A DNA stretch of 64,000 bases. Source: Bacteroides sp. ET71. Its GTDB lineage: Bacteria > Bacteroidota > Bacteroidia > Bacteroidales > Bacteroidaceae. Positions 1,539 to 60,962 of this stretch are shown here, in pieces (positions within the stretch are counted from its first letter, which is position 1; the number at the start of each line of letters is the position of its first letter). The stretch is from positions 1 through 64,000 of the forward strand of contig NZ_JAMBLS010000009.1 in assembly GCF_023336905.1 (NCBI RefSeq), written 5' to 3'. The notes beneath the pieces are model-generated. The model was not told the origin of the DNA. It saw nothing but the letters and a program-made list of their open reading frames with translations, and did no database searches. The translations under genes and the position numbers were made by a program.

Positions 1539-1855
1539 TTAGTTGACGAGGAGACAAGTTGACAAGTTGACGAGGCTACAAGTTAACGAGGGGACAAGTT
1601 GACGAGGATACAAGGACAGGAGTTATCCCTTGTCAACTCGTTCCCTTGTCAACTACAACAAGCCCCTGTTGACTCGTCAACTCGTTCCCTTGTCAACTAC
1701 AATAAGACCTTGTTGACTCGTCAACTCGTCCCCTTGTCAACAACAACAAGACCTTGTTGACTCGTCAACTCGTCCCCTTGTCAACAACAACAAGACCTTG
1801 TTGACTCGTCAACTCGTCCCCTTGTCAACTACAATAAGACCTTGTCAACTCAATA
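1539..1855. repeat. Array A1: inverted clusters of TTGACAAG/CTTGTCAA units, 44-bp period
   Basis: The whole serC-serA gap (349 bp, no gene) is built from variants of GTTGACGAG and GTTGACAAG in the left part (about 1540-1615) and their reverse complements CTCGTCAAC and CTTGTCAAC in the right part. In the right part a unit beginning GTTGACTCGTCAACTCGT recurs at 1668, 1712, 1756 and 1800, an exact 44-bp period. The two halves can fold on each other. Related clusters sit at 4064-4115, 28699-28878, 31512-31543 and 44771-44867. Confidence 0.9.
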
Positions 1856-1877
1856 ATCATTTAATCATCTTATCATT

Positions 1878-2801
1878 ATGAAAGTATTAGTCGCAACAGA
1901 CAAGCCGTTCGCCCAAGTGGCCGTAGACGGCATACGCAAAGAGATAGAAAACGCCGGTTACACACTGGCACTGCTGGAGAAATATGGCGAGAAGGCCCGC
2001 CTGCTGGAAGCCGTGGCCGATGCCGATGCCCTCATCATTCGCAGCGACGTGGTAGACGCCGAGGTGCTGGACGCCGCCAAGCAACTGAAGATTGTGGTAC
2101 GCGCCGGTGCGGGCTATGACAACGTAGACCTGGCTGCCGCCACCGCCCACGGCGTGTGCGTGATGAATACCCCGGGACAGAACTCGAACGCCGTGGCCGA
2201 GCTGGCCTTCGGCCTGATGGTGATGGCCGTGCGCAACCTGTACAACGGCACTTCGGGCACGGAGCTGAAGGGCAAGAAGCTGGGCATACATGCCTATGGC
2301 AACGTGGGGCGCAACGTGGCCCGCATAGCCAAGGGGTTCGGCATGGACATCCTGGCCTATGATGCCTTCCCCGCTGCCGTGGAGGCCATGAAGCAGGACG
2401 GCATCACGCCCGTGGACAGTGCGGAGGAGCTCTACGCGCAATGCAACGTCGTGTCGCTGCACATACCCGCCACGGCGGAGACGAAGGGTTCGATAGGCCA
2501 TGACCTGGTGGGACGGATGCTCAAGGGCGGTGTCCTTATCAATACGGCCCGCAAGGAGGTCATCGACGAAGAGGGGATGCTGAAGCTGCTGGGCGAGCGT
2601 ACTGACCTGAAGTATATGACCGACATCATGCCGGTGCGCCATGCCGAGTTCCAGGAGGTGGCCGCCGGACGCTACTTCTCTACCCCGAAGAAGATGGGGG
2701 CACAGACGGCCGAGGCCAACATCAACGCGGGCATTGCTGCCGCACGCCAGATTGTGGGTTTCCTGAAGGACGGGTGCGAACGCTTCCGGGTGAACAAGTA
2801 A
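1878..2801 (+). CDS. serA: D-3-phosphoglycerate dehydrogenase, short form with Lys in place of the catalytic His
   Basis: SerA oxidises 3-phosphoglycerate with NAD to 3-phosphohydroxypyruvate, the first step of serine synthesis. The 307-residue protein has the two-lobed D-2-hydroxyacid dehydrogenase fold only. Its NAD-binding glycines are in YGNVG (residues 140-144), and no C-terminal ACT regulatory domain is present, so serine feedback through ACT is not expected. Where most relatives carry a TPHxGG motif with the catalytic His, this one reads STPKKMGAQ, placing K271 at that position. That is the known type III-K variant seen in Entamoeba and some Bacteroidetes. DUF1015 follows 12 bases after the stop. 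Confidence 0.95.
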   Translation: MKVLVATDKPFAQVAVDGIRKEIENAGYTLALLEKYGEKARLLEAVADADALIIRSDVVDAEVLDAAKQLKIVVRAGAGYDNVDLAAATAHGVCVMNTPGQNSNAVAELAFGLMVMAVRNLYNGTSGTELKGKKLGIHAYGNVGRNVARIAKGFGMDILAYDAFPAAVEAMKQDGITPVDSAEELYAQCNVVSLHIPATAETKGSIGHDLVGRMLKGGVLINTARKEVIDEEGMLKLLGERTDLKYMTDIMPVRHAEFQEVAAGRYFSTPKKMGAQTAEANINAGIAAARQIVGFLKDGCERFRVNK

Positions 2802-2813
2802 GGAGGAGGGTGC

Positions 2814-4067
2814 ATGGCAACAATCAAACCTTTCAAGGGATTGCGCCCGCCCCGCCAGTTGGTGGAGCGGGTGGCATCGCGCCCCTACGACGTGCTGAAC
2901 TCGGACGAGGCACGCCGTGAGGCCGAGGGCAATGAGATGTCGCTCTACCACATCATCCGCCCAGAGATTGATTTCCCCGTGGGGACGGACGAGCACGACG
3001 AACGCGTGTACCAGAAGGCGGCCGAGAACTTCCGGCTGTGGCAGGAGCGCGGCTGGCTGGTGCAGGACAAGAATGCACATTATTATATATATGCGCAGAC
3101 GATGAACGGGCGGACGCAGTATGGCCTGGTGGTGGGGGCTTACGTGCCGGACTACCTGAACGGGGTCATCAAGAAGCATGAGCTGACGCGCCGCGACAAG
3201 GAGGAGGACAGGATGAAGCACGTACGGGTGTGCAACGCCAACATCGAGCCGGTGTTCTTCGCCTATCCGGACAACGAGGTGCTGGACGCGCTGGTGCGCC
3301 GCTACGTGGCGGGGCGCGAGCCGGAGTATGACTTCGTGGCGCCGGGCGACGGGTTCGGCCACACGTTCTGGGTGGTGGACGACGGGAAGGACATCGAGAC
3401 TATCACGCGGGAGTTTGACAAGATGCCTGCGCTGTACATTGCCGACGGGCATCACCGCAGTGCGGCGGCGGCCCTGGTGGGTGCGGAGAAGGCGCGGCAG
3501 AACCCCAACCACCGGGGGAACGAGGAGTATAACTACTTCATGGCTGTGTGCTTCCCGGCGGGGCAACTGACCATCATCGACTACAACCGCGTGGTGCGCG
3601 ACCTGAACGGGATGACGCCCGCCGGGTTCCTCGAAGCCTTGGGCAAGCACTTCACGGTGGAGGACCGGGGCGCGGACGAGCCGTACCGCCCGACGGGGTT
3701 GCACAACTTCGCGCTCTACGTGGACGGGCGGTGGTACAGCCTGACGGCACGCGAGGGGACGTATGACGATGCGGACCCCATCGGGGTGCTGGACGTGACC
3801 ATCTCGTCGCGCTACATACTGGATGAGTTGCTGGGCATACGCGACTTGCGCTCGGACCGGCGCATCGACTTCGTGGGCGGCATACGCGGCCTGGGCGAGC
3901 TGAAGCGGCGGGTGGACAGTGGCGAGATGGCCATGGCGCTGGCGCTCTATCCTGTCAGCATGAAGCAACTGATGGACATCGCGGACACGGGCAACATCAT
4001 GCCGCCCAAGACGACGTGGTTCGAACCGAAGCTGCGCTCGGGGCTGGTGATTCATAAGTTGGAGTAG
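2814..4067 (+). CDS. DUF1015 family protein (candidate serine-pathway enzyme)
   Basis: This 417-residue cytosolic protein has no signal peptide. It belongs to the DUF1015/COG4198 family, judged by the N-terminal IKPFKGLRPP and RPYDVLN segments and by IADGHHRSAAA (D211-R215 is DGHHR). The start codon lies 12 bases after serA behind AAGGAGGAGGG, a rare strong ribosome-binding site here, so it is translationally tied to serA. Function is unproven. The DGHHR motif resembles the ParB/sulfiredoxin-type active site of free-serine kinases, and no phosphoserine phosphatase (serB) lies in the window. A role in making or using phosphoserine is therefore a reasonable inference from context, not a demonstrated one. 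Confidence 0.85.
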   Translation: MATIKPFKGLRPPRQLVERVASRPYDVLNSDEARREAEGNEMSLYHIIRPEIDFPVGTDEHDERVYQKAAENFRLWQERGWLVQDKNAHYYIYAQTMNGRTQYGLVVGAYVPDYLNGVIKKHELTRRDKEEDRMKHVRVCNANIEPVFFAYPDNEVLDALVRRYVAGREPEYDFVAPGDGFGHTFWVVDDGKDIETITREFDKMPALYIADGHHRSAAAALVGAEKARQNPNHRGNEEYNYFMAVCFPAGQLTIIDYNRVVRDLNGMTPAGFLEALGKHFTVEDRGADEPYRPTGLHNFALYVDGRWYSLTAREGTYDDADPIGVLDVTISSRYILDELLGIRDLRSDRRIDFVGGIRGLGELKRRVDSGEMAMALALYPVSMKQLMDIADTGNIMPPKTTWFEPKLRSGLVIHKLE

Positions 4068-4115
4068 TTGACGAGGGGACGAGTTGACAAGTTGACAAGT
4101 TGACGAGTTGACAAG
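4064..4115. repeat. Array A2: short TTGACGAG/TTGACAAG cluster
   Basis: Five tandem variants of the unit GTTGACAAG follow the DUF1015 stop directly, the first overlapping its last codons. The array precedes the HU/DUF4469 gene and repeats the A1 family in one orientation only. Confidence 0.8.
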
Positions 4116-4176
4116 CTACCAACTACTAACTACCAATTACTAACTATTTTAATAACCTTATTAATACCCAAAGATT

Positions 4177-5031
4177 ATGGAAGAGAAGAACAGCCAGCGC
4201 AGTGTGCTGAACCTGCTGGCGCAAGAGAATCTATTGACAAAGGACATCGACAACGATTATTACCTGAGCATCAGGCGGCAGGACACGCTCGACATCAAGG
4301 CGCTGGCGAAGGAGGTGGCCCAAAACCACGGGGGGAAGACGGCCTCGGAGGTGGAGATGCTGACCAACGAGGTGCTGGAGCTGGCGGCGTGGTACCTGTC
4401 GAACGGCTTCAGCGTGAACACCCCGCTGGGCTATTTCCAGACCAACGTGCAGGGCATCGTGACGGCTGCCGAACTGGCCGCCATCGACACGGGCCGCATC
4501 AAGCTGAGCGTGGGCTACACCATGAGCCAGGGGATGACCGCGATGCTGGGCAACGCTAAAATCAACGTCGAGGTGGACAAGGCGAAGGTGGGTCCCGAAA
4601 TCTCGGCCGTCATCAGTTCGCAAGACGCCAAGAACCCCGCCGCCGTCACCCGCGGCGAGTCCGTCCCCGTCAAGGCCGGCGCAACCACCATCATCCGCGG
4701 TCGCAACCTCAAGGTGGACGGCCCGGCCGACTCGGGCGCAGGCATCACGCTGACCCGCGTGGACGAAGAGGCCGAACCCATCTTCATCTCCGCCACCGAC
4801 CTCTACCCCAACGAGCCGAAGGAAGTGGGCTTCATCCTGCCCGCATCGGTGCCCGACGGGTCGACGTGGTCGGTGACGCTCAAGACGCAGATAGGCGCGC
4901 GGCCCGGCGTCTTCCTGAAAGAGCCACGCGAGTTCACCCTCCAGAGCGCCTTCACCGTGGGACAGGCATCATCGCCCACCACCCCCGGCAGTGGCGATGA
5001 CGACGACAGCGGGCAGGGCACCTTCGGATAA
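4177..5031 (+). CDS. HU-like DNA-binding protein with C-terminal DUF4469 Ig-like domain
   Basis: This 284-residue protein has an N-terminal segment (about residues 20-125) resembling the Bvu_2165-type HU/IHF fold of Bacteroidetes, for example LAWYLSNGF-like and FSVNTPLGYFQT stretches. A beta-rich C-terminal part (about 150-265, with RGRNLKVDG and VSLVL-like strands) fits DUF4469. The tail is low-complexity, rich in Gly, Ser and Asp (SGDDDDSGQG). No signal peptide is present, so it is probably nucleoid-associated or an accessory DNA-binding protein. Its targets are unknown. It lies between a type-A array and a type-B palindromic array. Confidence 0.75.
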   Translation: MEEKNSQRSVLNLLAQENLLTKDIDNDYYLSIRRQDTLDIKALAKEVAQNHGGKTASEVEMLTNEVLELAAWYLSNGFSVNTPLGYFQTNVQGIVTAAELAAIDTGRIKLSVGYTMSQGMTAMLGNAKINVEVDKAKVGPEISAVISSQDAKNPAAVTRGESVPVKAGATTIIRGRNLKVDGPADSGAGITLTRVDEEAEPIFISATDLYPNEPKEVGFILPASVPDGSTWSVTLKTQIGARPGVFLKEPREFTLQSAFTVGQASSPTTPGSGDDDDSGQGTFG

Positions 5032-5040
5032 GGGAAAAAA

Positions 5041-5176
5041 CTCACCACCCCGTGAGGTAGCTACCTCACCACCCCGTGAGGTACATAGCTCACCACCCCG
5101 TGAGGTACATAGCTCACCACCCCGTGAGGTACATAGGTCACACCCCCGTGAGGTATATAGCTCACGGGGGTGTGAG
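5041..5176. repeat. Array B1: five 24-bp palindromic units closed by an inverted unit
   Basis: Units start at 5041, 5065, 5089, 5113 and 5137 with an exact 24-bp period. Each carries the near-palindrome CTCACCACCCCGTGAG plus a short linker (GTACATAG or similar). The sixth element, CTCACGGGGGTGTGAG at 5161-5176, is the reverse complement of the fifth core, so the end folds into a 15-bp hairpin with a GTATATAG loop. The array begins 9 bases after the DUF4469 stop and may act as a terminator. The same family recurs at 36339-36655. Confidence 0.9.
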
Positions 5177-5220
5177 ATTTTCAGGCCCCCACTCACATCC
5201 CACTCCCCCCTGGCTCCAGG

Positions 5221-5405
5221 TGAGATCCTTCGATTCCGCTACGCTCCACTCAGGATGACAGATGCCACATCCCCTCCCGACTTACGCCCCCCTCTTTCCT
5301 GTCATCCTGAGCGAAGCCCGAAGGGCGCAGTCGAAGGAGCTCCCTACGAGCACCTACAACGTAAGGGAGATGTTTCGACTGCGCTGCGCTCCGCTCAACA
5401 TGACA
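5221..5405. repeat. MITE-like inverted repeat (complete copy plus a solitary arm)
   Basis: Positions 5300-5405 form an imperfect inverted repeat with arms TGTCATCCTGAGCGAAG... and ...CTCCGCTCAACATGACA. A separate single arm (GAGATCCTTCGATTCCG to CAGGATGACA) occupies 5221-5260. The second complete copy in the window is at 46832-46948. The core CATCCTGAGCG...GTCGAAGGA is a repeat seen in many distant bacterial genomes, so mobilisation by a transposase in trans is likely; no transposase is present here. Confidence 0.85.
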
Positions 5406-5508
5406 GCTCCCTCTCCCTTCCTGAACTTACACCCCCTCCCCCTCGCTTTTAACACTTCACCCCTGCAAATAGTCATACTGTTGTAACATACATTTAAGTT
5501 ATATTGCT

Positions 5509-5517
5509 TACCTTTGC
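5509..5517 (+). promoter_or_regulatory. -7 element of the TonB receptor promoter
   Basis: TACCTTTGC matches TAnnTTTG exactly. It lies 69 bases before the receptor start, leaving a leader of about 60 bases. No well-placed -33 TTG is evident. Confidence 0.55.
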
Positions 5518-5586
5518 ACAACGAAACAGATGTTAACGATGCGTTAACAGTAAATATTCACTAATTATTCACTAAAACCAAACAGT

Positions 5587-8274
5587 ATGAAAAGACATCT
5601 TTTGCACATCCTGTTGTCAGCCCTGCTCTGCGTGGGCACCCTCACGGCCTACGCGCAGAACGTCAAGGTGAGCGGCCAACTGGTCGACGCCGAGACCGGC
5701 GAACCGCTCATCGGAGCCAGCGTCGTGGTGGAAGGCACCACACAAGGCAGCGTGACCGACATCGACGGCAACTTCCAGCAGACCGTCCCCCCACGCGCCA
5801 CCCTCGTGTTCACCTACGTCGGCTACAAGGAAATGAAGTACACCCTTGAAGACGGCAAAACCCAGCTCGGCACCTTCCGCATGCAGGCCGACGCCGTGCT
5901 GCTGGCCGACGTCACCATCACCTCCAGCGTGGCCGTCGACCGCCGCACCCCCATCGCCGTCAGCAACATCGGCCCCGCCTTCATCGAAGAGAAGCTCGGC
6001 ACACAGGAGTTCCCCGAACTGCTCAAATCCACCCCCGGCGTCTACGTCACTAAAGACGGCGGCGGCTTCGGCGACGCCAGCACCCGTGTCCGCGGCTTCA
6101 AGAGCGAAAACGTGGCCATGATGATCAACGGCGTCCCCATGAACGGCATGGAAAACCAGAAAGTCTACTGGTCCAACTGGGCCGGCCTCTCCGACGTCAC
6201 CAGCACCATGCAAGTGCAGCGCGGACTGGGCGCCTCCAAAGTATCCGTCCCCGCCGTCGGAGGCTCCATCAACATCATCACCAAGAGCACCGACGCCAAG
6301 AAAGGAGGCTCCATCTCCTACGCCATGGGCAACGACGGATACAACAAGATACTCTTCACCGTATCCTCCGGCCTCACCAAAGACGGCTGGGCCTTCACCC
6401 TGCTCGGAGCCAAAACCTGGGGCGACGGCTACATCCAAGGCACCGCCTTCGAAGGCTACAACTACTTCGCCAGCATCGCCAAGCGCATCAACGACAACCA
6501 CCAGCTCTCGCTGACCGTCTTCGGCGCACCCCAGACACACGACCAGCGCAACTACAACAACGCCCTCTCCATCAAAGAGTGGCAGCGCGTCAAACAATAC
6601 ATGGGCGACGACAGCCCCTACAAGTACAACCCCACCTTCGGTTACCGCAACGGCCAGGCCTACGTGTCCAACTTCAACGCCTACCACAAACCCCAAATCT
6701 CGCTCAACCACCTCTGGCAAATCGACCACAAGTCCAGCCTGAGCACCGCCGTCTACGCCTCCATCGCCCGCGGACACGGCAGCTACACCGGCGGTGACAG
6801 CGAACACCGCAACCTCTGGTACGGCGCCTCCAACGGCTACGTCAACAACACCTTCCGCCGACCCGACGGCACCTTCGACTACGACGCCGTCGACGCCCTC
6901 AACGCCGCCAGCACCACCGGCTCGAAGATGATCATAGGCAAGATGATGAACAACCACGAATGGTACGGCCTCCTGTCCACCTACACCACCAAGTTCGGTG
7001 AATACTTCGACTTCTATGGCGGCATCGACTTCCGCTACTACAAAGGCCTGCACCAGAACATCATCACCGACCTGTTCAGCGGCCAGTACTTCGTCGACAG
7101 CTACAACCGCTCCATCGTCTCGCCCGCCAACAACGCCGCAGCCGCCAACCCCGCTTTCGTCAACCAGAAACTCGGCGTGGGCGACGTCATCTTCCGCGAC
7201 TACGACGGCCACGTCATGTCCGAAGGCGTCTTCGCCCAGTTGGAATACAACCGCGACAAACTCTCCGCCTTCATCTCCGGCGGCCTGTCCAACACCGGCT
7301 ACTGGCGCTACGACCGCTTCTACTACGACGCCGACCACGCCAAGTCCGGCAAGAAGAACTACCTGGGCGGCAACATCAAAGGCGGCGTCAACTACAACCT
7401 GACCGACAAGCACAACGTCTTCTTCAACGCCGGCTTCATCAGCCGCGCCCCGATGTTCGACACCTCGTTCATCAACTCCCAGAACTCGCACGACCGCAAC
7501 CCCGATGCCCTCAACGAAAAGGTCATGTCCTTCGAAGTGGGCTACGGCTTCCGCAGCCGCGTCTTCGCAGCCAACATCAACGCCTACTACACCCAATGGA
7601 TGGACAAGAGCCTGTTCGACAGCCAAACCGGCCGCAGCGGCGAACGCTACACCCTCAACATGACCGGAGCCAACGCCAAACACATGGGTATCGAGCTCGA
7701 CTTCAACTACCGCCCCACCCGCTGGTTCAGCCTCGACGGCATGTTCTCCTGGGGCGACTGGCGCTGGGACGGACTGGCCACCGGCTTCTTCTACAACTCC
7801 TCAGGCCAAATCATGGACGTAGCAACCGAACAGCCGATAAAAGACATGGCTAACGTAGAACAATACCGCTACCGTATCCGCATGGACAACGTCAACGTAG
7901 GCGGCTCCGCACAGACCACCGCAGCCCTCGGCGTCACCTTCCGACCCATGGAAGGCCTCCGCATCGGCCTCGACTGGAACTTCGCCGCACGCCTCTTCGC
8001 CGACTACGACATCGAAGCCAGCTCAGCCAAACTGGGCGAAGAATACATCGTCGGCAAACCCTGGCAAGTGCCCTCCTACCACCTGTTCGACCTCAACGCC
8101 GGCTACACCTTCGACTTCGGCAAGGTGCGTGCCACCCTCAGCGGCAACGTCAACAACCTCTTCAACCAAGAGTACATCGCCGATGCCTGGGACGGCAGCA
8201 CGTGGGAAGACGTAGAGCGCGTGTTCTACGGCTTCGGACGCACCTACTCCGTGAGACTGAAATTCAACTTCTAA
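5587..8274 (+). CDS. TonB-dependent outer-membrane receptor with N-terminal CarboxypepD_reg domain
   Basis: This 895-residue outer-membrane transporter begins with a cleavable signal peptide (MKRHLLHILLSALLCVG, predicted cut after AYA). A carboxypeptidase-regulatory-like beta-sandwich follows (about residues 25-110, VSGQLVDAETGEPLIGASV), then a plug domain (about 120-240, STRVRGFKSENVAMMING and GLGASKVSVPAVGGSINI). A 22-strand-type barrel ends in SVRLKFNF. No SusD partner is encoded next to it. The following gene is a lipoprotein 18 bases downstream and the third gene is a nuclease lipoprotein, so the imported ligand may be derived from nucleic acid. Codons are strongly GC-ending, unlike the lipoprotein gene that follows. 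Confidence 0.95.
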   Translation: MKRHLLHILLSALLCVGTLTAYAQNVKVSGQLVDAETGEPLIGASVVVEGTTQGSVTDIDGNFQQTVPPRATLVFTYVGYKEMKYTLEDGKTQLGTFRMQADAVLLADVTITSSVAVDRRTPIAVSNIGPAFIEEKLGTQEFPELLKSTPGVYVTKDGGGFGDASTRVRGFKSENVAMMINGVPMNGMENQKVYWSNWAGLSDVTSTMQVQRGLGASKVSVPAVGGSINIITKSTDAKKGGSISYAMGNDGYNKILFTVSSGLTKDGWAFTLLGAKTWGDGYIQGTAFEGYNYFASIAKRINDNHQLSLTVFGAPQTHDQRNYNNALSIKEWQRVKQYMGDDSPYKYNPTFGYRNGQAYVSNFNAYHKPQISLNHLWQIDHKSSLSTAVYASIARGHGSYTGGDSEHRNLWYGASNGYVNNTFRRPDGTFDYDAVDALNAASTTGSKMIIGKMMNNHEWYGLLSTYTTKFGEYFDFYGGIDFRYYKGLHQNIITDLFSGQYFVDSYNRSIVSPANNAAAANPAFVNQKLGVGDVIFRDYDGHVMSEGVFAQLEYNRDKLSAFISGGLSNTGYWRYDRFYYDADHAKSGKKNYLGGNIKGGVNYNLTDKHNVFFNAGFISRAPMFDTSFINSQNSHDRNPDALNEKVMSFEVGYGFRSRVFAANINAYYTQWMDKSLFDSQTGRSGERYTLNMTGANAKHMGIELDFNYRPTRWFSLDGMFSWGDWRWDGLATGFFYNSSGQIMDVATEQPIKDMANVEQYRYRIRMDNVNVGGSAQTTAALGVTFRPMEGLRIGLDWNFAARLFADYDIEASSAKLGEEYIVGKPWQVPSYHLFDLNAGYTFDFGKVRATLSGNVNNLFNQEYIADAWDGSTWEDVERVFYGFGRTYSVRLKFNF

Positions 8275-8292
8275 TCCCTAACGCAACAGATT

Positions 8293-14100: not shown

Positions 14101-14190
14101 CGAAAAATTGGCGAGACCAGCAACGAATCCCCCACTTTGTCCCCGCCTCTCCCCCGGGATGAAGGCAGAAGACACGCCGGGCGACCTTAC

Positions 14191-14293
14191 CATCATGTAC
14201 GATGATGCCTATCATCATGTACGATGATCCTACCATCATATACGATGATGCCTGCCATCATATACGATGATGCCTGCCATCATGCATGATGAT
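14191..14293. repeat. Array C1: five 22-bp ATCAT-palindrome units
   Basis: Units CATCATGTACGATGAT and CATCATATACGATGAT start at 14191, 14213, 14234, 14256 and 14278 (period 21-22 bp), spaced by GCCTGC-like linkers. The array lies between the divergent ettA and rhlE promoters, in the 399-bp gap 14048-14446. The same core, read in the sense direction of the next gene, occurs at 60881-60962. Confidence 0.9.
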
Positions 14294-14393
14294 TCCCATC
14301 TGAAACCCGGGAAGAGGACAGGAAACTCCGGGGAAAAGCATACCTAAGACCACGGGAGAAGCCAGGCGGCCAGCCCTTTTGACAGCATACGCC

Positions 14394-28698: not shown

Positions 28699-28878
28699 TT
28701 AGTTGACAAGGGGACGAGTTAACGAGACTACAAGGGGATGGCATACTTATTAACTTGTCTACTCCTCCACTTGTCAACTTGTTAACTTGTTAACTTGTCA
28801 ACTTGTTAACTTGTTAACTTGTTAACTTGTCAACTTGTCAACTCGTCAACTTGTTAACTTGTCAACTTGTCTACTCCC
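28699..28878. repeat. Array A3: AACTTGTTA/AACTTGTCA short tandem units
   Basis: The metH-smpB gap is filled with 9-bp steps AACTTGTTA and AACTTGTCA (about 28760-28875), plus inverted GTTGACAAG and GTTAACGAG units near metH. The A-family core is the same as at 1539-1855, but at 9-bp spacing. It would lie in the metH leader and at the smpB end. Confidence 0.88.
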
Positions 28879-31511: not shown

Positions 31512-31543
31512 AAGCCTCGTCAACTTGTCAACTCGTCAACTCA
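31512..31543. repeat. Array A4: short CTTGTCAACTCGTCAAC cluster
   Basis: Three A-family units lie in the 330-bp gap 31337-31666, between the divergent DMP19-like and NifU-like genes and upstream of the promoter at 31599. Nothing else that I can name occurs in the gap. Confidence 0.75.
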
Positions 31544-36293: not shown

Positions 36294-36338
36294 GTACCCA
36301 CGCCCGGGGCGCGGCATCGCTGCATGTCACACATCCGC

Positions 36339-36655
36339 GACCTAACTATCTCACCCCCCCCGTGACCTAACTACCTCACACCCCCGTGACCTAACTACCT
36401 CACATACCCGTGACCTTACTACCTCACACCCCCATGATCCCCTTAGGCAACAGGTACTATTACAGTTTAAATAGCCACTTATTACAGCTTAAATACAAAT
36501 CTATTACAGCTTAAATAGAAAAATATTACAGTTATAATAGTTGACTATCTTAGCTAAAATAGTTTTCTATGTAAACCATAATAACACCTGTTGCCTAAGG
36601 GGATCATGGGGGTGTGAGATAGTAAGGTCGCGGGGGTGTGAGACGATAAGGTATA
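36339..36655. repeat. Array B2/G: nested inverted array with a 33-bp perfect inverted repeat
   Basis: Left: four 24-bp units GACCTAACTACCTCACACCC start at 36339, 36364, 36388 and 36412. A perfect 33-bp inverted repeat (36423-36455 versus 36586-36618; core ATCCCCTTAGGCAACAGGT) encloses an AT-rich array of four 22-bp units ATTACAGYTTAAATA at 36459, 36481, 36503 and 36525. Imperfect inverted copies (CTATGTAAACCATAAT) follow before the right arm. Right: two inverted 24-bp units (GTGTGAG at 36612 and 36636). The whole forms a mirror around about 36520. Together with the terminator and the hairpin at 36724 it fills the 611-bp clpB-prfC gap. Confidence 0.88.
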
Positions 36656-36723
36656 GGGTATGTGACCTATTGCACCCGGGGGATGAAGGTGTGCCGAAAT
36701 AAAAGAGTGTCAAATATAAAAAA

Positions 36724-42864: not shown

Positions 42865-44752
<1,888 letters not shown>

Positions 44753-44770
44753 CAAATAAATGAGTTTTAG

Positions 44771-44867
44771 TGGACAAGTTGACGAGTTGACAAGGGAACA
44801 AGGGCCGGAACGTTGCCCGGAGCACTCCCTGCCTCGTAGTCTCGTTAACTGGTCAACTTGTCAACTG
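44771..44867. repeat. Array A5: inverted TTGACAAG clusters in the pyrG-yidC gap
   Basis: GGACAAGTTGACGAGTTGAC at the left and CTCGTTAACTGGTCAACTTG at the right are inverted variants of the A unit, able to form a stem around a non-repeated loop (about 44800-44838). Confidence 0.8.
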
Positions 44868-46757: not shown

Positions 46758-46831
46758 CGCGGGGGGAGTGCACCGAACGAAAGGCCGTATCCCGTCTGCG
46801 GATGAGTGCCCGTCGCACGGCCCATTCCCGC

Positions 46832-46948
46832 TGTCATCCTGAGCGGAGCGCAGCGCAGTCGAAGGATCTCACGACATGCCGCGCGTGACATGCCACGCTC
46901 GTAGTGAGATGTTTCGACTACGCCCTGCGGGCTCCGCTCAACATGACA
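46832..46948. repeat. MITE-like inverted repeat, second complete copy
   Basis: Arms TGTCATCCTGAGCGGAGCGC (from 46832) and CCGCTCAACATGACA (to 46948) pair over about 40 bases; inner parts ATCTCAC/GTGAGAT also pair. Same family as 5300-5405. It lies in the 589-bp gap 46758-47346 after yidC. Confidence 0.85.
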
Positions 46949-47137
46949 GGGGGAAGAGGCGGGGCGAGGGAGGTTCTCCGCCGATGATACGGCCTTTCCC
47001 TTTCGCCTATTCTTGTAAACTATTTTCCAAACCCATCCCAAGCCTGCCCCGAAAAGGAGCCGAGCGAGGCCCCCGCGCGCCCCTTTCGAGCACCACCGGC
47101 CTCAGAAGGTATTCTGGAAGGGGTATGAGCGGTTGGA

Positions 47138-47294
47138 GGAATGGTACGGAACGATTCCGGGAATGGTACGGAACGATTCCCAGAATAGTAGGGAACCATT
47201 CCCCGGAAAGGTATATTACCTTTGCCCGAAAGGTATATTACCCTTCCCGGAAAGGTATAATACCCTTCCCCCAAAGGTAATATACCTTTCCCGG
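47138..47294. repeat. Array D: seven 22-bp palindromic units that drift in sequence
   Basis: Units start at 47138, 47160, 47182, 47205, 47227, 47249 and 47271 (steps of 22, 22, 23, 22, 22, 22). The first three read like GGAATGGTACGGAACGATTC; the last four like GGAAAGGTATATTACCCTTC. Period and symmetry are kept while the core changes, so the array is one structure with divergent halves. It ends 52 bases before the MATE gene. Confidence 0.9.
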
Positions 47295-51679: not shown

Positions 51680-51695
51680 GACCCTGCACCCCGCT

Positions 51696-51760
51696 GGGTT
51701 ATAACCCCCATACCCCCGGGGGTTATAACCCCCCGTACCCTCCGGGGCATAACCCCCATG
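51696..51760. repeat. Array E: three 24-bp GGGTTATAACCC palindromes
   Basis: Units GGGTTATAACCCCC, GGGGGTTATAACCCCC and GGGGCATAACCCCC are spaced by 24 bases, a perfect palindrome in the middle unit. The array follows the S9 stop by 16 bases. Confidence 0.85.
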
Positions 51761-51787
51761 CCCCACCCGATAATTATGTTATAAAAC

Positions 51788-52965: not shown

Positions 52966-52988
52966 GCTCGTTTCAAAGCTACAAACTG

Positions 52989-53102: not shown

Positions 53103-53106
53103 ATAC

Positions 53107-55089: not shown

Positions 55090-55126
55090 ATTAGCTATAT
55101 AATAAATACTATTGTTAACTGATTTA

Positions 55127-56254
55127 CTACAACATTCCTTTCGAACTGGGCAATTCAAAGTGATAGATATCCCGTTTCACTGCCATTTTCATTGCACGCG
55201 CTAGAGCCTTAAAAATACCTTCTATCTTATGATGCTCATTTTTCCCTTCAGCCTTAATATTCAAATTCATGCGGGCAGCATCGCTCAGCGACTTAAAAAA
55301 GTGCAAAAACATCTCTGTGGGCATTTCGCCAATCTTCTCACGTCTGAACTCTGCATCCCAAACTAACCACGGACGACCACCAAAATCCAAACAAACCTGG
55401 CAGAGACAGTCATCCATAGTAAGAGCATAACCATAACGTTCAATCCCTCTTTTACTGCCAAGAGCTTGATAAATACACTCCCCTAAAGCTAAAGCCGTAT
55501 CTTCAATCGTATGATGTTCATCTACCTCCATATCTCCTTTTACAGAAATCTCAAGATCCATTCCTCCATGTTTTCCTATCTGCTCCAACATATGGTCAAA
55601 AAAACCTAAACCTGTATGAATGTGGCAATATCCACTCCCATCCAAATTTAAAGTTACATGGATATCTGTTTCCTTCGTGGTACGTCTGACTTCTGCTCTG
55701 CGTTCACCAGCAAAAAGAAATTCAGCAACATGGTCCCAATCTTTGGACGCAAGGACACAGACATTTTCCAAATTTTTATCTCCCTGCAAAATAGATTTAT
55801 CTTCTTGAAGAAGAATAGCACAGCATCCCAAATTATATGCCAACTCAACATCTGTCATACGGTCACCAATAACAAAACTATGCAATAAATCATAGTCGGG
55901 GCTATTGATATATTTTTTCAACATTCCTGTTCGCGGCTTACGAGTCGGGGCATTATCAGCCGGCATGCTTCGATCAATGCAGATATTATCGAAAGTAACT
56001 CCCTCACCAGCCAGAGTTTTGAGTATTAAATTATGAGAAGGCCAAAAAGTTTCTTCCGGAAAAGCTTCCGTACCTAAACCATCTTGATTGGTAACCATAA
56101 CAAACTCAAAATCCAGCTTAGAACGAATAAAGCTTAAATTGCGTATGACTTTAGGATAGAACTCCAATTTTTCCAATGAATCCAATTGATAATCTTCTGG
56201 AGGTTCTATTACTAACGTACCATCACGATCGATAAATAAAACTTTCTTTTTCAT
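55127..56254 (-). CDS. hisB: Bifunctional histidinol-phosphatase / imidazoleglycerol-phosphate dehydratase
   Basis: A 375-residue fusion that carries out two steps of histidine synthesis. The N-terminal HAD phosphatase (about 1-165) has [15 protein letters not shown] and [10 protein letters not shown] and a zinc site. The C-terminal IGP dehydratase (about 185-375) has [18 protein letters not shown] and the metal His motif [15 protein letters not shown]. The bifunctional form is usual in Bacteroidetes and Enterobacteria. It follows hisC by 7 bases. Confidence 0.97.
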
Positions 56255-56261
56255 AGGCTAA

Positions 56262-57296
56262 TTAGTATTTCTTTAAAGCCCTTATCAATGTCTCATTTTC
56301 CATCTTCGTACCTACTGTAATACGTAAGCAATTTCCACAAAGGGCAACTGTATGTCGGTTACGCACAATAATGCCTTCTTCGACCAAGTATTTGTAGATT
56401 TGCACAGCGTCTGTTACTCTTACCAAAAAGAAATTTGCGTTAGATGGAAAGACCTTTTGTACACAAGGTAATTTAAGAAACTCTTTTTCTAAATGATCAC
56501 GTTCTTCCTTCAACGTAGTAACCCAACGTTCTATTTCATAATACCGATGCAACATCTCCATAGCTTGTTGTTGCGTTAATTGATTTACATTATAAGGGTA
56601 TTTTATCTTAGTAAGGACGCTAATAATATCGGCCGAAGCAAATGCCATACCTAAACGAATAGCTGCACATCCCCATGCCTTAGAAAAAGTTTGAAGCACA
56701 ATAAGATTAGAGAAATCATCCAATCGCTTCAAAAACGAAGGCTGCTCTGAAAAATCATTATAAGCTTCATCCAATACCACAATACCATCAAAACGGTGAA
56801 GCAAGCGTTCTATCTCAGAATGATTCAAATCATTACCTGTTGGATTATTAGGCGAACAAAGAAATATAAGTTTGGTATGTTCATCCGCCGCATTTAAGAT
56901 TTTATCAGCAGAGAACTGGAAATGTTCATCCAACAACACCTTACGATATTCCACTTCATTTATCTCCGCACAAACCAAATACATCCCATACGTCGGTTCT
57001 ATAGCTACCACATTGTCTTCCCGTGGTTCACAAAAAGCGCGAAAAACGAGATCAATAGCTTCATCGCTTCCATTACCTAAAAAAATTCGCTCTGGAGCAA
57101 CACCTTTCAATCGAGAAAGGCTTTTCTTCAGATCCCACTGTAATGGATCCGGATAACGATTGTTGGGACCATTATAAGGATTTTCATTAGCATCAAGGAA
57201 AACAGAAGCTGATTTCCCTTGATATTCATCTCGAGCTGAAGAATAAGGTTTTAATGCCCAAATATTAGGACGAGTCAATTCTTGTAGTGTCTTCAT
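56262..57296 (-). CDS. hisC: Histidinol-phosphate aminotransferase
   Basis: HisC transfers an amino group from glutamate to imidazole acetol phosphate. The 344-residue PLP enzyme has [16 protein letters not shown], the aspartate of [10 protein letters not shown], and the PLP lysine in [15 protein letters not shown]. The start overlaps the hisD stop (ATGA-type overlap), so translation is coupled. Confidence 0.96.
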
Positions 57297-58585
57297 AATC
57301 TTCTTTTCAAGTTCTCCATTCTTACTGTTACTGCATTTTTATGTGCATCCAGATGTTCATTTGCAGCCATCTCCTGTATGGAAGGACCTATATGTTGCAA
57401 TCCAACAGGACTAATCTCTTGAAATGTAATTTTACGAATGAAACTATCCAAACAAACACCACTATAAGCACGAGCATAACCATTAGTTGGCAAAGTATGA
57501 TTGGTGCCTGAAGCGTAGTCACCTGCACTTTCAGTTGAATATGATCCCAGAAAAACAGAACCTGCATTGATGATTCGTTCCGCAATAGATCTATACTCAT
57601 TTGCCTGGATAATGAGATGCTCAGGTGCATAAGCATTGACTAAATCCACAGCCTCATCCATATCATGTACCACAATCAATTTACTATGCTTCAGCGAGCA
57701 AGCAGCTATATCATGACGAGGCAAAAGAGACAATTGACATTCAATCTCTTCCATAACTGCCTGACGCAATATTGGAGAAGTGGTAATCAAGATTGCTTGA
57801 CTATCCACTCCATGTTCTGCCTGGCTCAACATATCAGCAGCTACAAAAACTGGATTTGCAGTTTCATCTGCTAATACCGCAACTTCCGACGGTCCTGCTG
57901 GCATATCAATAGCCACATCACGTAAACTGACCAATTGCTTAGCCGCAGTAACAAACTGATTTCCGGGACCAAATATTTTATATACTTTAGGAACAGTCTC
58001 CGTGCCATAAGCCATCGCTGCAATAGCTTGCACACCTCCAGCTTTAAAAACATATTTTACACCTGCTACTTTTGCAGCATACAAAACCGCAGGATGTACC
58101 TTCCCATCTCTCATTGGTGGAGTACACAATATAATATCTTTACAACCTGCAATTCTAGCTGGTACAGCCAACATTAATACCGTAGAAAACAAAGGCGCTG
58201 TTCCACCTGGTATATATAAACCTACTCGTTCTATAGGCACCGCTTTCTGCCAACAGACTACCCCAGGTTGAGTTTCTACTCGGCATCCCGCAAAACGCTG
58301 TGCAGCATGAAAAGCATGAATATTTTGAGCAGCTAAATGAATAGCGTTCTTCAGGCTTTCAGTTATCAAATCTTCTGATAACTTCATTTCCTCCTCAGTT
58401 ACTGCCAATGATGATAACTTGACTTTATCAAAATTCCACTCATAGTCCAATACCGCACTGTCACCTTCCGCCTGTACTCGTTGAAGAATCCCTCGTACCG
58501 TATCAAACAAGCTTTCTACATTCATCACCGGCCGCTTTAATACATCAGGCCACAGACTTCGATCCGGATAATCAATCTGTATCAT
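57293..58585 (-). CDS. hisD: Histidinol dehydrogenase
   Basis: HisD oxidises histidinol twice with NAD to histidine and is zinc-dependent. The 430-residue protein has normal length, with [19 protein letters not shown], the NAD-linked region [21 protein letters not shown] (seen here as [14 protein letters not shown]) and the zinc-site segment [13 protein letters not shown] frame-overlap of 4 bases with hisC and a gap of 11 bases from hisG mark the operon. Confidence 0.97.
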
Positions 58586-58596
58586 AAATATTTATC

Positions 58597-59448
58597 TTAA
58601 ATAATCATTTTCTCAATAGGTAGTACTAATATACCTTCGGCTCCCAAAGCTTTCAGTTTTCCAATAATTTCCCAAAAGCATTTCTCATCTAACACTGTAT
58701 GTACAGAACACCAGCCATCCTGTGCCAAAGGCATTACCGTAGGACTCTTCATTCCAGGTAATACAGCCAAAATCTGCTCTAATTTGCTTTTAGGAGCATT
58801 CATTAAAACATATTTTTTATCTTCAGCCATTTTCACAGCATTCATACGAAATAGCAGTTCTTTTAAAATCTCCTGCTTTTGGTCATCCAAAGATTTATTA
58901 CCAATAAGTAGAGCTTCAGACTTCATAACCACTTCCACCTCTTTTAAGCTATTGCTCACTAAAGTTGAGCCTGAACTTACAATATCAAATATAGCATCAG
59001 ACAATCCAATGCCAGGTGCTACCTCAACAGAGCCTGTAATCACATGAATTTCTGCATTCACATTCTGCGCTGCTAAATAGGCAGATAAAATATGCGGATA
59101 AGAAGTAGCTATTTTCTTCCCTTCAAACCATTGAACACCAGAATAGTCTATATCTTTTGGCAAAGCCAAAGACAAACGGCACTTACTATATCCCAAACGT
59201 TTTATAATCTCAGCATCTTCACCTTTCTCTACGAACTCATTTTCACCAACGATACCGATATCAGCTACACCTGTGGCTACAGACTGCGGAATGTCATCAT
59301 CCCGAAGAAATAGTACTTCCAAAGGGAAATTCGTCGACTGCACTAATAATGTGCGTTTAGTTGGACTCAATTTAATATCAGATTCTTCCAAAAAGGACAT
59401 GGTTTCATCATAAAGCCGCCCTTTAGCTTGTACTGCGATTCTTAGCAT
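58597..59448 (-). CDS. hisG: ATP phosphoribosyltransferase, long form
   Basis: HisG joins ATP and PRPP in the committed step of histidine synthesis. The 283-residue long form contains the two catalytic lobes (RIAVQAKGRLYDETM, GVADIGIVGENEF, DAIFDIVSSGSTLVSN) and a C-terminal regulatory ACT-like domain (about 215-283, PTVMPLAQDGWCSVH). That domain usually gives histidine feedback inhibition, so no HisZ is needed. It is first in hisG-D-C-B, 37 bases behind an attenuator. Confidence 0.97.
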   Translation of the reverse strand: MLRIAVQAKGRLYDETMSFLEESDIKLSPTKRTLLVQSTNFPLEVLFLRDDDIPQSVATGVADIGIVGENEFVEKGEDAEIIKRLGYSKCRLSLALPKDIDYSGVQWFEGKKIATSYPHILSAYLAAQNVNAEIHVITGSVEVAPGIGLSDAIFDIVSSGSTLVSNSLKEVEVVMKSEALLIGNKSLDDQKQEILKELLFRMNAVKMAEDKKYVLMNAPKSKLEQILAVLPGMKSPTVMPLAQDGWCSVHTVLDEKCFWEIIGKLKALGAEGILVLPIEKMII

Positions 59449-59485
59449 AATTGTAATATTTTTATTAATATCATCTTAATAACAT

Positions 59486-59528
59486 AAAAGCGAGACTTTC
59501 CGTTACAAATCGGTAAGCCTCGCTTTTT
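59486..59528 (-). terminator. his attenuator terminator
   Basis: On the minus strand AAAAGCGAGGCTT pairs with AAGTCTCGCTTTT with one A-C mismatch, plus an inner CCG/CGG stem, and ends in a T-run. It lies 27 bases after the leader-peptide stop and 37 bases before hisG. Confidence 0.8.
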
Positions 59529-59555
59529 ATTATATCAGTCCATTGCCCACCGAAT

Positions 59556-59606
59556 TTACTCGCCGGAAAAATGATGATAATGGCAATGAATGATACTAAT
59601 TCTCAT
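59556..59606 (-). CDS. hisL: His-rich leader peptide of the his operon
   Basis: A 16-codon frame encodes MRISIIHCHYHHFSGE, with four His among six consecutive residues (7, 9, 11, 12). It lies between the promoter at 59627 and the terminator hairpin, the classic layout of ribosome-mediated attenuation: stalling at His codons when histidyl-tRNA is scarce would prevent the terminator. An alternative pairing (antiterminator) was not resolved by eye. The layout is seen directly; the mechanism is inferred. Confidence 0.75.
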   Translation of the reverse strand: MRISIIHCHYHHFSGE

Positions 59607-59626
59607 AATTCTTATATTCAATGCGA

Positions 59627-59657
59627 CAAAAATAAAGCTTATATCTGGAAAAAACAA
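59627..59657 (-). promoter_or_regulatory. his operon promoter
   Basis: On the minus strand a TTG (59655-59657), 20 bases, then TATTTTTG (59627-59634) form a good Bacteroides promoter, 20 bases before the leader peptide. Confidence 0.65.
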
Positions 59658-60330
59658 AAAAATATTACGGAAAAGAGTTTTTCTCTATCAACTATTTTAT
59701 TCGGAAAGCACAAGTAACATTTGGTAAACCCGCCGAAAAATAAAATAATATCAGATTTTTCATGTATTCAGAATAAAAAGATTAACAGTTCCTGTCTACA
59801 ACCATATATAGCGTAAGATTGTTTATCATTGAAAAAACATTCAGCCATACGGTCAACATATCAAGTTCGAACTCGTATACTTTGACTACGTTTTTTACTG
59901 GATCTTCAAAAAATATTATCGAACAATGCATATTAATATCTGTTTTCAGTGTACGTAACCTCCTCTTGAAATTAATATTCTCGACAATGGAAGTAACTTC
60001 GCCAATTCATGAACTTGAAGCCGACTTCATACCCCGTTACCGTCCACCCGAAAGAAAACCTGCACGTCTGTTATCTGATTTTATCCGTATCATAAACCAT
60101 TTGATCTCGTGAATGTGGTAAACTTTGGACAGAAGAGTTCCTAAAACATTACAGCATATCCAAGTTATGACAAACACTGCAGCGATTGTCTGCGCTAAAG
60201 GGGCAGCAAAAGGGAACTTGGATTTCCGTATATCCACCAAATATCCACCAAAAGAGAATCTTCCGCATTAATGCCTTCTTGCCATATCTACGCTAACTTT
60301 TGGAGTCCGTAAAGCAAGCCGTTTTCCACC

Positions 60331-60411
60331 GAGCTAGACAAAGAGGATTGTGGCATAGCCTACTTGGTTGTTCACATCGGAAGCCGTAATTTAGGAAAAC
60401 AAGTGGAGTAA
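60331..60411 (+). pseudogene. Fragment of an rtcB RNA ligase gene
   Basis: Frame 60331-60411 encodes ELDKEDCGIAYLVVHIGSRN followed by LGKQVE and a stop. This matches the RtcB segment IELDKD...YLVIHSGSRNLGKQV, with the functional Ser of HSGSRN changed to Ile. Only about 26 residues survive, with no start or flanking RtcB sequence and a stop 2 bases before the HU-like gene, so it is a decayed remnant. The rest of the gap 59658-60330 contains no gene I can support. Confidence 0.6.
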
Positions 60412-60412
60412 G

Positions 60413-60814
60413 TCATTTCTTCACCATTCCCTCCAGCTCCGTCCATTCCACCCGCGAGGGGACGATGGTGCGTTTCTTCACCCGGCTGTTCTGCGCACGG
60501 CTGTATTCGGGAATGAAAGCCACCGTTACCTTGCGGAATTGCTCCGGACTGACTTCCTCGGGCGTATCCACTCCTTGCCCGTTGGCGTTGCCCACCAAGT
60601 AGAAGGTGCCCAACCCGTCCAGTTTCACCGTGTTACCCATCTCCATCATGTCGCCCAACACCTCGCCCAATCCCATGAGAACGGCATAGGTGTCGCCTTT
60701 GCTCACCGTCGACATTTCCGACAAACGCTCGGCCACGTCCTTCGTTCCATACGTGCCTGCCGTAAACGAGCGGGGATACCATTTCTTCCCAATCTTCTGC
60801 TTTTTGTAATACAT
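60413..60814 (-). CDS. HU family DNA-binding protein
   Basis: A 133-residue basic protein (about twice as short as the DUF4469 version) with an IHF/HU-like core of the Bvu_2165 type: KDVAERLSEMSTVSKGD, YAVLMGLGEVLGDMMEMG and VKLDGLGTFYL, then FIPEYSRAQNSRVKK and a basic tail. It lacks the canonical HU PXXR arm motif. The start at 60814 is chosen over an upstream Met because the protein family starts at MYYKKQK and the intervening bases belong to the leader. The promoter at 60972 would place a four-unit palindromic array in its leader. It may bind structured DNA. Confidence 0.75.
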   Translation of the reverse strand: MYYKKQKIGKKWYPRSFTAGTYGTKDVAERLSEMSTVSKGDTYAVLMGLGEVLGDMMEMGNTVKLDGLGTFYLVGNANGQGVDTPEEVSPEQFRKVTVAFIPEYSRAQNSRVKKRTIVPSRVEWTELEGMVKK

Positions 60815-60880
60815 ACTAACGTCCTTTCCTAAGTTAAGTCCATAGATGATCCTGGCTGAGTGCGGCAGCCAGGTGAGCAT

Positions 60881-60962
60881 CATCATGCATGATGCCTAGG
60901 ATCATCGTACATGATGCCTACTATCATCGTATATGATGATACCCATCATCGTGCATGATGAC
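60881..60962. repeat. Array C2: four ATCAT-palindrome units in the HU-gene leader
   Basis: Units near 60881, 60901, 60923 and 60945 contain ATCATCGTATATGATGAT-like cores, with steps of 22 for the last three. As read toward the HU gene the core is CATCATATACGATGAT, exactly that of C1 (14191-14293), so array and orientation are shared. The array lies between promoter and start codon and would be transcribed. Confidence 0.88.

Follow-up and report, generated by a model that had tools for sequence, protein, structure and literature searches.

Tandem arrays beside HU-type genes in Bacteroides: putative cognate sites with cores private to each paralogue

The 64,000-nucleotide stretch of DNA analysed here (the window) carries short intergenic tandem arrays that share a period close to two helical turns and differ in the sequence of their cores. 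What holds the period nearly constant while the cores are unrelated? Textbooks present HU as a packaging protein that acts independently of sequence, and a preliminary description of the window had named HU-like proteins, DNA shape and RNA hairpins as possible common factors. We find that the arrays adjoin genes for HU-type proteins, that their cores are private to paralogues and, like the period, co-vary with the protein, that the same cores are dispersed through the genome, and that a conserved core is joined to a free spacer. These observations suggest that each HU-type protein has its own predicted landing sites on the chromosome.

Arrays and HU-type genes of the window

Array detection with TRF confirmed that all seven families of the preliminary description (A to G) are present, although D consists of two adjacent arrays with different cores and A is an element of another type. 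The arrays lie in gaps overall, as had been stated, except that C and C2 overlap over-long ORF starts. The features are as follows.

1541..1845, no strand: family A, inverted arms composed of 8-bp repeats (AGTTGACA), with expansion at a 44-bp period
4177..5031, plus strand: HU-DNA_bdg + DUF4469 gene; PF14848 40.9 bits (cut-off 30; 4216-4572), PF14734 51.1 bits (cut-off 22.6)
5041..5175, plus strand: array B, 24 bp x5 and an inverted last unit, 10 bp beyond the stop codon of the HU-DNA_bdg gene
14188..14300, plus strand: array C, 22 bp x4.9, sharing the core of C2
36327..36445, plus strand: array B2, 24 bp x4.6, B-like core CTCACACCCCCGTGA (36327-36437 by TRF)
36458..36540, plus strand: array G, 22 bp x3.8
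36603..36670, minus strand: inverted B2-like units, identified by eye
42865..42930, plus strand: array F, 21 bp x3
47138..47213, plus strand: array D1, 22 bp x3.4, GGAATGGTACGGAACGATTCCC type
47195..47294, plus strand: array D2, 22 bp x4.4, GGAAAGGTATATTACCC / AAAGGTATATTACCTTT type
51688..51769, plus strand: array E, 24 bp x3.4, degenerate (71% matches)
60413..60886, minus strand: HU_rel / HU-HIG gene (ORF); PF18291 60.6 bits (60500-60790); likely start near 60814, 133 aa
60878..60966, minus strand: array C2, 22 bp x4, core ATCAT-CGTAC-ATGAT

Family A, whose 44-bp array (1632-1845, 4.9 copies by TRF) is surrounded by 8-bp stretches, is a different kind of element, made of 8-bp repeats in inverted arms, and stands outside the HU system. 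Array B2 scores 12 against B, one under the match threshold of 13, and one core string is common to both. Array G is enclosed by a 17-bp inverted repeat (36439-36455 / 36586-36602) together with the inverted B2-like units, giving an inverted-flank score of 42 against 16 for the highest control.

Three HU-like genes, two of them beside arrays, had been described; both genes that we found adjoin an array, and the PF14848 and PF18291 models yield these two only, with no third. The product of the 60413..60886 gene scores 89.4 bits with TIGR01201 (HU_rel), above the curated cut-off of 68.6, which is exceeded by six of eight proteins tested, the two without a match being of the DUF4469 type. Its AlphaFold2 model contains helices at 24-34 and 39-58 followed by strands at 63-65, 69-77 and 93-102, a predicted order that may correspond to that of HU (mean pLDDT 68, residues 105-133 under 50). 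A profile built from 43 HU_rel sequences (A1) identifies solved structures of HU and IHF, with 30 distinct chains at E <= 0.001 and 5eka as the top match (E 2.7e-11); the window's single HU_rel sequence gave no match to solved HU/IHF structures. The product of the 4177..5031 gene matches PDB 4fmr by sequence. PF18291 has 1 to 30 matches per genome among 31 genomes, and HU-HIG is reportedly the subject of a 2017 paper by Burroughs.

Array C2 lies upstream of the likely HU_rel start, at a distance of about 64-152 bp, and a TAnnTTTG box ends 6 bp before the array. Array C is dispersed and separates a minus-strand gene from a DEAD-box helicase gene. The 60413..60886 gene is the best candidate owner of family C (centre CGTAY), and the 4177..5031 gene is a candidate owner of B and B2.

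The period and its association with HU-type genes

Among intergenic arrays with a score of at least 60 and at least 2.5 copies, the period is exactly 22 bp in 13 of 32 from our sample of the window's own genome (461 kb) and in 46 of 69 from 80 loci of relatives. Lag 22 occurs in 50 of the 618 intergenic regions of relatives, as against 1, 0 and 4 for lags 19, 20 and 21 and 0-4 for each lag in the ranges 19-21 and 25-30. This enrichment at 22 bp, greatly in excess of chance and combined with unrelated cores, bears out the earlier claim of a near-constant period. Copy number changes by whole units between relatives. The relatives' loci were fetched via the CTP synthase gene, and a genic peak at lag 66 was set aside as coming largely from that gene. 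Lag 22 is found in seven other genera of the family (13/153 regions) and is rare outside it (1/81, 0/76 and 0/94 regions, the second set holding one 22-bp array by TRF, L155); in 50 kb of E. coli it occurs in 0 of 17 regions.

HU_rel and HU-DNA_bdg genes have neighbouring arrays much more frequently than other genes do, which strongly supports the proposed involvement of HU-like genes. In the window's genome, an array lies at most 350 bp upstream of 15 of the 19 HU_rel/HU-HIG genes tested (four of the 23 PF18291 matches are outside this set) and of 32 of 290 others (p = 1.6e-10); without the two genes known beforehand, the window's and that of L234, the count is 13 of 17 (p = 4e-9). For HU-DNA_bdg + DUF4469 genes the array is downstream in 10 of 12 (9/11 without the window's own gene, which was the original finding; p = 7e-7); L295 is excluded for lack of a called HU gene. 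Across six genomes, an array lies within 350 bp on either side of 62 of 73 distinct HU_rel genes (17/20, 13/13, 13/17, 5/6, 10/11 and 4/6) and of all 18 genes of the DUF4469 type, compared with 44 of 291 for the remaining genes in the own sample; for G100-G102, G163 and G164, a single HU_rel protein served as the similarity query that located the HU loci. Three of the 20 HU_rel genes of the window's genome have no array, none adjoins two short HU matches (L296 and L297), and in a wider sample of the family only 11 of 35 HU genes have an upstream array, four of them at lag 20 only. The stretches from other classes and orders were selected for being near HU matches. Outside the family, 13 of 21 HU genes have an array; the corresponding counts are 6 of 447 for genes from other genomes and 2 of 57 for the remaining genes at these loci. 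L155 was known before this count and is also one of the six background genes, and leaving it out gives 12/20 and 5/446. The titles and abstract starts listed by searches of the PMC library contained no report of a link between HU genes and arrays.

The period also follows the protein: on the protein tree it changes 4 times against 9.0 when shuffled (0/200), the HU protein tree contains a 21-bp clade (100/99), and the nearest protein neighbour has the same period in 19 of 24 cases. Neutral minisatellites, arising where hairpin-prone DNA slips and mechanically favours 22 bp, would shift by whole units and track the intergenic base count, as the arrays do. Two-copy young repeats, however, show no strong peak at 22 (0/11, 3/27 and 2/12), and neither the tracking of HU clade by period nor the adjacency to HU genes agrees with a neutral origin; nor does the clustering of variable columns (z 6.2), which reflects a conserved core and a variable spacer at fixed total length. 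We find this origin hardly credible.

Cores, paralogues and dispersed copies

In a set of 53 genes, core similarity reaches at least 12 in 11 of the 13 pairs with protein similarity of at least 0.8 and, as protein similarity falls below 0.8, in 10/18, 3/55, 1/137 and finally 0/1155 pairs (<0.4); for pairs below 0.5, similar cores occur in 1 of 1292. A first comparison of cores and proteins with 28 genes was not significant (139/2000), and a Mantel test on the larger set gave 4/2000 with a small rho of 0.13. Common descent can partly account for the cores shared by orthologues.

Cores recur away from the HU genes as well. Fifteen of 28 non-HU arrays of the window's genome match an array of an HU gene in the same genome, against 0.2 expected, with a threshold of 13 and a highest null score of 17; two of the 15 are A-type 8-bp stretches and two form one composite at L004, and L018, L020, L021 and L234-L238, fetched for core C, were left out of this count. 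The remaining 13 have no matched owner, including array E (best score 9 among same-genome HU-gene arrays), of which a 12-mer, GGGTTATAACCC, lies inside a called gene in L253 and was left uncounted. With incomplete HU sets, 8 of 27 arrays match an HU array in G100 (five of them A-type) and 2 of 15 in G101 (one a dispersed repeat); for the yidC-MATE cores of L032 and L025, no owner was seen by eye among the HU arrays obtained from their genomes.

Within the window, array C matches an HU-gene array with a score of 17, and the cores of D1 and F, the latter together with its period, match arrays upstream of HU_rel genes at C20:13602 (score 21) and C21:58681 (score 18), respectively. The core of G matches the array upstream of an HU-DNA_bdg gene of the same genome at C9:79626 (score 13, at threshold). 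The D2 type is found also at C2:208947; its owner is uncertain, with weak matches to the L017 and L250 arrays and a similarity by eye to L316 of G101. Family C falls into two subfamilies, and in either of them one array lies upstream of an HU_rel gene; the place of array C is taken in G100 and G101 by the other subfamily (centre TGCCG). Paired with the window's 60413..60886 gene is the core ATCAT-CGTAY-ATGAT, and with its paralogue at C9:72218 the core ATCAT-TGCCG-ATGAT. At the place of D1, G100 has a different core with the period unchanged. Array B has about three units in G100 and array F has two.

Since the cores differ by paralogue, are common to close relatives and recur within a genome, they point to recognition of sequence. 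The shape-based function proposed earlier, with HU-like proteins binding any phased repeat whatever its sequence, is consistent with the constant period and the nearby HU genes; it is not supported by cores that are private, common mainly to close relatives and found again across a genome, and we give it almost no credence.

The earlier statement that all units are quasi-palindromic was too strong, as 29 of 103 arrays have clearly palindromic units; by shuffling of the window's arrays, with C itself left out, p is 0.005 for E, 0.025 for C2, 0.045 for D2, 0.055 for D1, 0.06 for B, 0.075 for B2, 0.58 for F and 0.84 for G. Those 29 arrays, and the 14 of 55 upstream arrays that begin at the presumed transcription start, agree with control at the RNA level, where hairpins in a transcribed leader or trailer would regulate the adjacent HU gene. 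RNA hairpins would tolerate G.U over A.C on the transcribed strand, whereas the mismatches of co-directional palindromic arrays are A.C 23 and G.T 11 (A.C 2 and G.T 7 in other contexts, where the strand is arbitrary). Most units are not clearly palindromic, arrays also occupy divergent and convergent gaps, hairpins need no fixed 22-bp period, and Rfam gave no match at gathering score in the window. These data disfavour the hairpin ladders suggested previously and make RNA-level control very unlikely.

Co-directional, convergent and divergent gene contexts number 15/3/3 in the own sample, 33/10/10 in relatives and 18/5/4 in the near set. Dispersed arrays have no promoter or gene-orientation preference and their numbers track intergenic bases, on which ground we rejected a terminator or promoter role for all arrays. 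In 11 of 55 HU_rel genes the array start is preceded, at a distance of 6-15 bp, by the end of a TAnnTTTG box (other 10-bp bins, 0-3); no such box stands just before or after the array in 36 of the 55. Given these 36 genes and the lack of promoter preference, simple operators do not fit all arrays.

The orientation data, a gene flanked by its own repeat, copies between other genes and lineage-specific families would also be expected of REP/RAYT-like dispersal, in which HU gene and repeat co-evolve because the gene helps to spread or maintain the repeat, and the arrays have no regulatory role. A few arrays do lie inside inverted-repeat elements, 4 of 103 having flanks above the highest control score of 16; with so few, we rejected a larger mobile element around the arrays, and terminal inverted repeats of the BrickBuilt type (see below) are not a general feature. 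Pfam found no transposase-type domain in the two window proteins, nor did NCBIfam in eight proteins. Moreover, several arrays occupy a conserved position across species and differ there by entire units, and 14 of 55 HU genes have a TAnnTTTG box immediately ahead of the array. Dispersal of this kind thus appears unlikely.

Proposed explanation and known systems

Taken from the sequence patterns, the explanation that we consider probable is that HU paralogues are sequence-specific, each with private, putative cognate arrays of 21-24 bp. The arrays would be the sites of a large paralogous HU-type family (TIGR01201/HU-HIG; HU-DNA_bdg + DUF4469), with one core per paralogue, and HU dimers may bind next to one another along them, about two helical turns apart. 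The ruler would then be the protein, with the subclade setting 21, 22 or 23 bp. The array beside a paralogue's gene is usually upstream in HU_rel, where a quarter of the arrays begin just after a putative -7 promoter box, and usually downstream in the DUF4469 type. A core beside the gene of its own paralogue fits autoregulation, and the recurrence of that core between other genes, at anything from one to about a dozen places, would mark the targets of the protein. We infer binding, repression or other regulation and the role of the dispersed sites.

If correct, sequence-specific paralogues would explain the twenty or more HU_rel genes of some Bacteroidales genomes and the 22-bp arrays with unrelated cores in about 8% of relatives' intergenic regions. 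Binding sites would become predictable for each paralogue from sequence alone, and the family would offer a natural series for learning how the HU fold gains specificity. Much more tentatively, tens of HU paralogues per cell might each polymerise on their own barcode arrays and bring together the dispersed loci marked with that word, so that the Bacteroidales nucleoid would be folded or insulated by sequence. In such an address code of the chromosome, barcodes would diversify with gene duplication, and loci could change address, as the C and D1 places would have done between species.

Plasmid iterons are direct repeats of about 22 bp, close to two helical turns, with unrelated cores and autoregulation by the binding protein, whereas the arrays described here lie on chromosomal contigs, are dispersed, have many cores per genome and have an HU-type partner. 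No Rep family is among the Pfam matches listed for the 20 window proteins scanned. REP elements, which are dispersed through the genome as intergenic palindromes flanking, and co-evolving with, a single gene, have RAYT transposases as partners; here the partner is an HU-type protein and the units stand in fixed-period arrays. To our knowledge, no private code for each HU paralogue has been described. IHF is a sequence-specific HU homologue, and autoregulation of hupA is reported in E. coli (PMC3969353). The HU_rel profile attests homology to both HU and IHF, but the E. coli proteins come from few genes and use single sites, in contrast to tens of paralogues and tandem 21-24-bp arrays. BrickBuilt of Porphyromonas gingivalis is described as a minisatellite/MITE with intergenic 23-nt tandem repeats that change by whole units (PMC4596501). 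That paper lists BrickBuilt_14 beside a PF00216 DNA-binding protein gene, and the words histone, HU family and nucleoid are absent from its main text. As described there, BrickBuilt resembles our arrays in its 23-nt intergenic tandem repeats, in its whole-unit changes and in belonging to a relative of the same order, and differs in having a single family of cores and in its leader, tail and terminal inverted repeats, where the arrays reported here have unrelated cores.

Period and unit structure of the intergenic arrays

The seven array families proposed in the preliminary description are all present in the window, except that family D comprises two arrays with different cores, D1 and D2, and not one. 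The quasi-palindromic character ascribed there to all units is restricted to a subset: 29 of 103 arrays are palindromic at p<0.05 in a shuffle test, versus 15 of 309 random 22-mers. The window belongs to contig 9 of its genome. Sampling covered 20 stretches of the window's own genome and 80 loci of relatives (CTP synthase relatives, mostly named Bacteroides or Mediterranea), with genes called using a simple codon model. The period is exactly 22 bp in 13 of 32 intergenic arrays of the own genome and in 46 of 69 of the relatives. A lag test performed without TRF on 618 intergenic regions of the relatives was positive in 50 (lag 22), 37 (lag 44) and 18 (lag 66), versus 0–4 at lags 19–21 and 25–30. 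Seven other genera of the same family showed lag 22 in 13 of 153 regions, and the peak was absent from other families of the order (1/81 regions), other orders (0/76), other classes (0/94) and 50 kb of E. coli (0/17).

Copy-number comparison by eye with G100, a species with 85–93% identity to the window genome in larger matches, showed whole-unit changes at orthologous places with the arrays kept (units in window/G100: A 5/1, B 5/3, C 5/2, E 3/4, F 3/2). D1 has three units in each genome, with a different core. Across 60 loci, the yidC–MATE gap holds 22-bp arrays with differing cores in many species and mostly just a terminator-like hairpin in more distant ones. Variable columns cluster inside arrays (748 same-state neighbours versus 666 ± 13, z 6.2, using 49 of 81 arrays; z 4.5 for palindromic, 2.5 for non-palindromic, 1.2 for genic arrays and 1.6 for other periods). 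The unit thus consists of a conserved core and a free spacer, with a fixed total length.

A second kind of repeat, made of inverted arms of 7–8-bp tandem repeats, occurs in the window and, with other words, in gaps of other species; at site A the inverted-arm architecture is constant across species and the words differ.

Inverted-arm repeats of the AGTTGACA type in the window
1541–1845
4066–4115
28745–28875
31516–31542
44769–44867

At two loci of another genome, G102 (L199 and L202), GGAGATATCT arrays lie within an element ending CCCGTTGGCGGAATT ... AATTCCGCCAACGGG. A dispersed repeat of the GTCATCCTGAGCG... type (window 5299–5406 and 46820–46950) has many copies in the own and related genomes.

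HU-type genes adjoining arrays

The own genome has 40 copies of the ATCAT-n5-ATGAT core, versus 3 for the control, and most of them fall into two discrete subfamilies. One array of each lies directly upstream of an HU_rel gene (PF18291; window 60413–60886 and C9:72218), and 15 further HU-HIG loci (TIGR01201) were therefore sampled. A 21–23-bp array was found within 350 bp upstream of 15 of 19 HU_rel/HU-HIG genes, versus 32 of 290 other genes (Fisher 1.6e-10), and of 13 of 17 without the two HU_rel genes known beforehand to have arrays (p 4e-9). Genes of the second HU type (PF14848 plus DUF4469) carry the array 3' of the stop codon in 10 of 12 cases, versus 36 of 296 (p 1.2e-7); the remaining two have it upstream. 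Counting either side in six genomes, an array adjoins 62 of 73 distinct HU_rel genes and all 18 genes of the second type, versus 44 of 291 other genes (own sample).

Outside the family, 14 of 22 HU_rel genes examined adjoin a 21–23- or 43–44-bp array (7 upstream, 7 downstream). Without L360, which is own-genus, 13 of 21 do so, versus 6 of 447 genes that carry such an array within 350 bp in further genomes from beyond the family (p 7e-16); other genes at the same loci have one in 2 of 57 cases. One locus, L155, comes from a different order within the class. In a sample of 35 HU_rel genes taken across the family and picked by best PF18291 score, 11 have an upstream array, four of them at lag 20 only, so some subtypes lack one.

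Core, period and protein

Among 53 HU genes with arrays, we scored a core as shared at 12 or more. This was the case for 11 of 13 pairs with protein similarity of at least 0.8, 10 of 18 at 0.6–0.8, 3 of 55 at 0.5–0.6, 1 of 137 at 0.4–0.5 and none of 1,155 below 0.4. Array period goes with the clade to which the protein belongs: on the tree of 24 proteins with 21-, 22- or 23-bp arrays it changes 4 times, versus 9.0 when shuffled (0/200 as low), and the clade with 21-bp arrays has support of 100/99. The columns that best separate 25 same-core from 176 different-core pairs, which are not independent, are Q108, R15 and Y104 (window protein numbering), with N109 close behind; we regard their tie to core choice as a lead only. 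In the AlphaFold2 model of the window HU_rel protein, prediction is poor from residue 105 onwards.

The cores also recur away from HU-type genes. Loci not picked for core C hold 28 non-HU arrays, of which 15 score above the 99% null level against an HU array of their own genome, versus 0.2 expected; these include two A-type stretches (inverted arms of 8-bp repeats) and two that form one composite. The corresponding numbers are 8 of 27 in G100, five of them A-type, and 2 of 15 in G101, one being a dispersed repeat.

Window arrays and same-genome HU arrays
C: matches C2, a second array like C
D1: matches the array of HU_rel gene C20:13602
D2: weak match
E: no match
F: matches the array of HU_rel gene C21:58681
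G: matches the array at C9:79626, score at threshold
B2, a second array like B: similar to B, the array beside the window's HU-DNA_bdg gene, with a score of 12, one short of the threshold

By eye, yidC–MATE cores of several species resemble HU_rel arrays of other genomes (L325, L335, L251/L019, L316); for those of L032 and L025, no owner, that is, an HU-type gene whose adjoining array has that core, was found by eye among the sampled HU loci of their genomes. At window 36327–36670, B2 arrays and a 17-bp inverted repeat form the arms of a large inverted structure, and G lies in its loop; sites belonging to two distinct HU owners may thus be nested here. An array pair of the GATGAGTATAATAGTCATC type beside the AAAGGTATATTACC type occurs in two unrelated places in two species (G000:C2:208861–209043 and the yidC–MATE gap of L024). 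Close to one contig end (L003, 1093–1407), 13 copies of a 24-bp unit form an array that weakly matches the one of L286, an HU gene of the DUF4469 type (score 12, under the threshold).

Putative mechanism and relation to known systems

On solely comparative grounds, HU-type proteins would recognize the sequence of their arrays. The five-sequence AlphaFold2 model of the window HU_rel protein, of modest confidence (mean pLDDT 68, pTM 0.53), has two helices and strands in an HU-like order. As two helical turns span about 22 bp, adjacent dimers would lie on one face of the DNA.

In 14 of 55 HU_rel genes a TAnnTTTG box, the Bacteroides -7 element, has its end at -30 to +5 relative to the array start, versus 5 of 55 for a window of equal size farther upstream. 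Eleven genes have this end 6–15 bp 5' of the array start, and other 10-bp bins hold 0–3; in 36 of 55, no box was found either directly 5' of the array or in the stretch from the array to the start codon. A protein filament covering the transcription start would repress the gene that encodes it, which would make autorepression the simplest reading for the box-bearing group. Dispersed arrays showed no promoter preference, so that insulation, silencing or bridging would be as likely for them as classical repression.

The tail SGQGTFG ends 9 of 19 HU_rel proteins of the own genome (L017, L251, L247, L244, L240, L006, L010, L245 and L243) and 4 of 30 in other genomes; similar tails (GTFG, GSFG, TPLG) also occur. 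The SGQGTFG tail may be a tag for docking to a common partner.

Published descriptions have HU binding with no sequence specificity (PMC5683647) and IHF as its sequence-specific homologue (PMC3969353). Our search of the PMC literature found no paper linking HU-type genes to their own tandem arrays. The passages covered of the report on BrickBuilt, a 23-nt repeat of P. gingivalis (PMC4596501), contain no HU link; one BrickBuilt copy is listed there next to a PF00216 DNA-binding gene, and the repeat looks like a sister case of the arrays described here.
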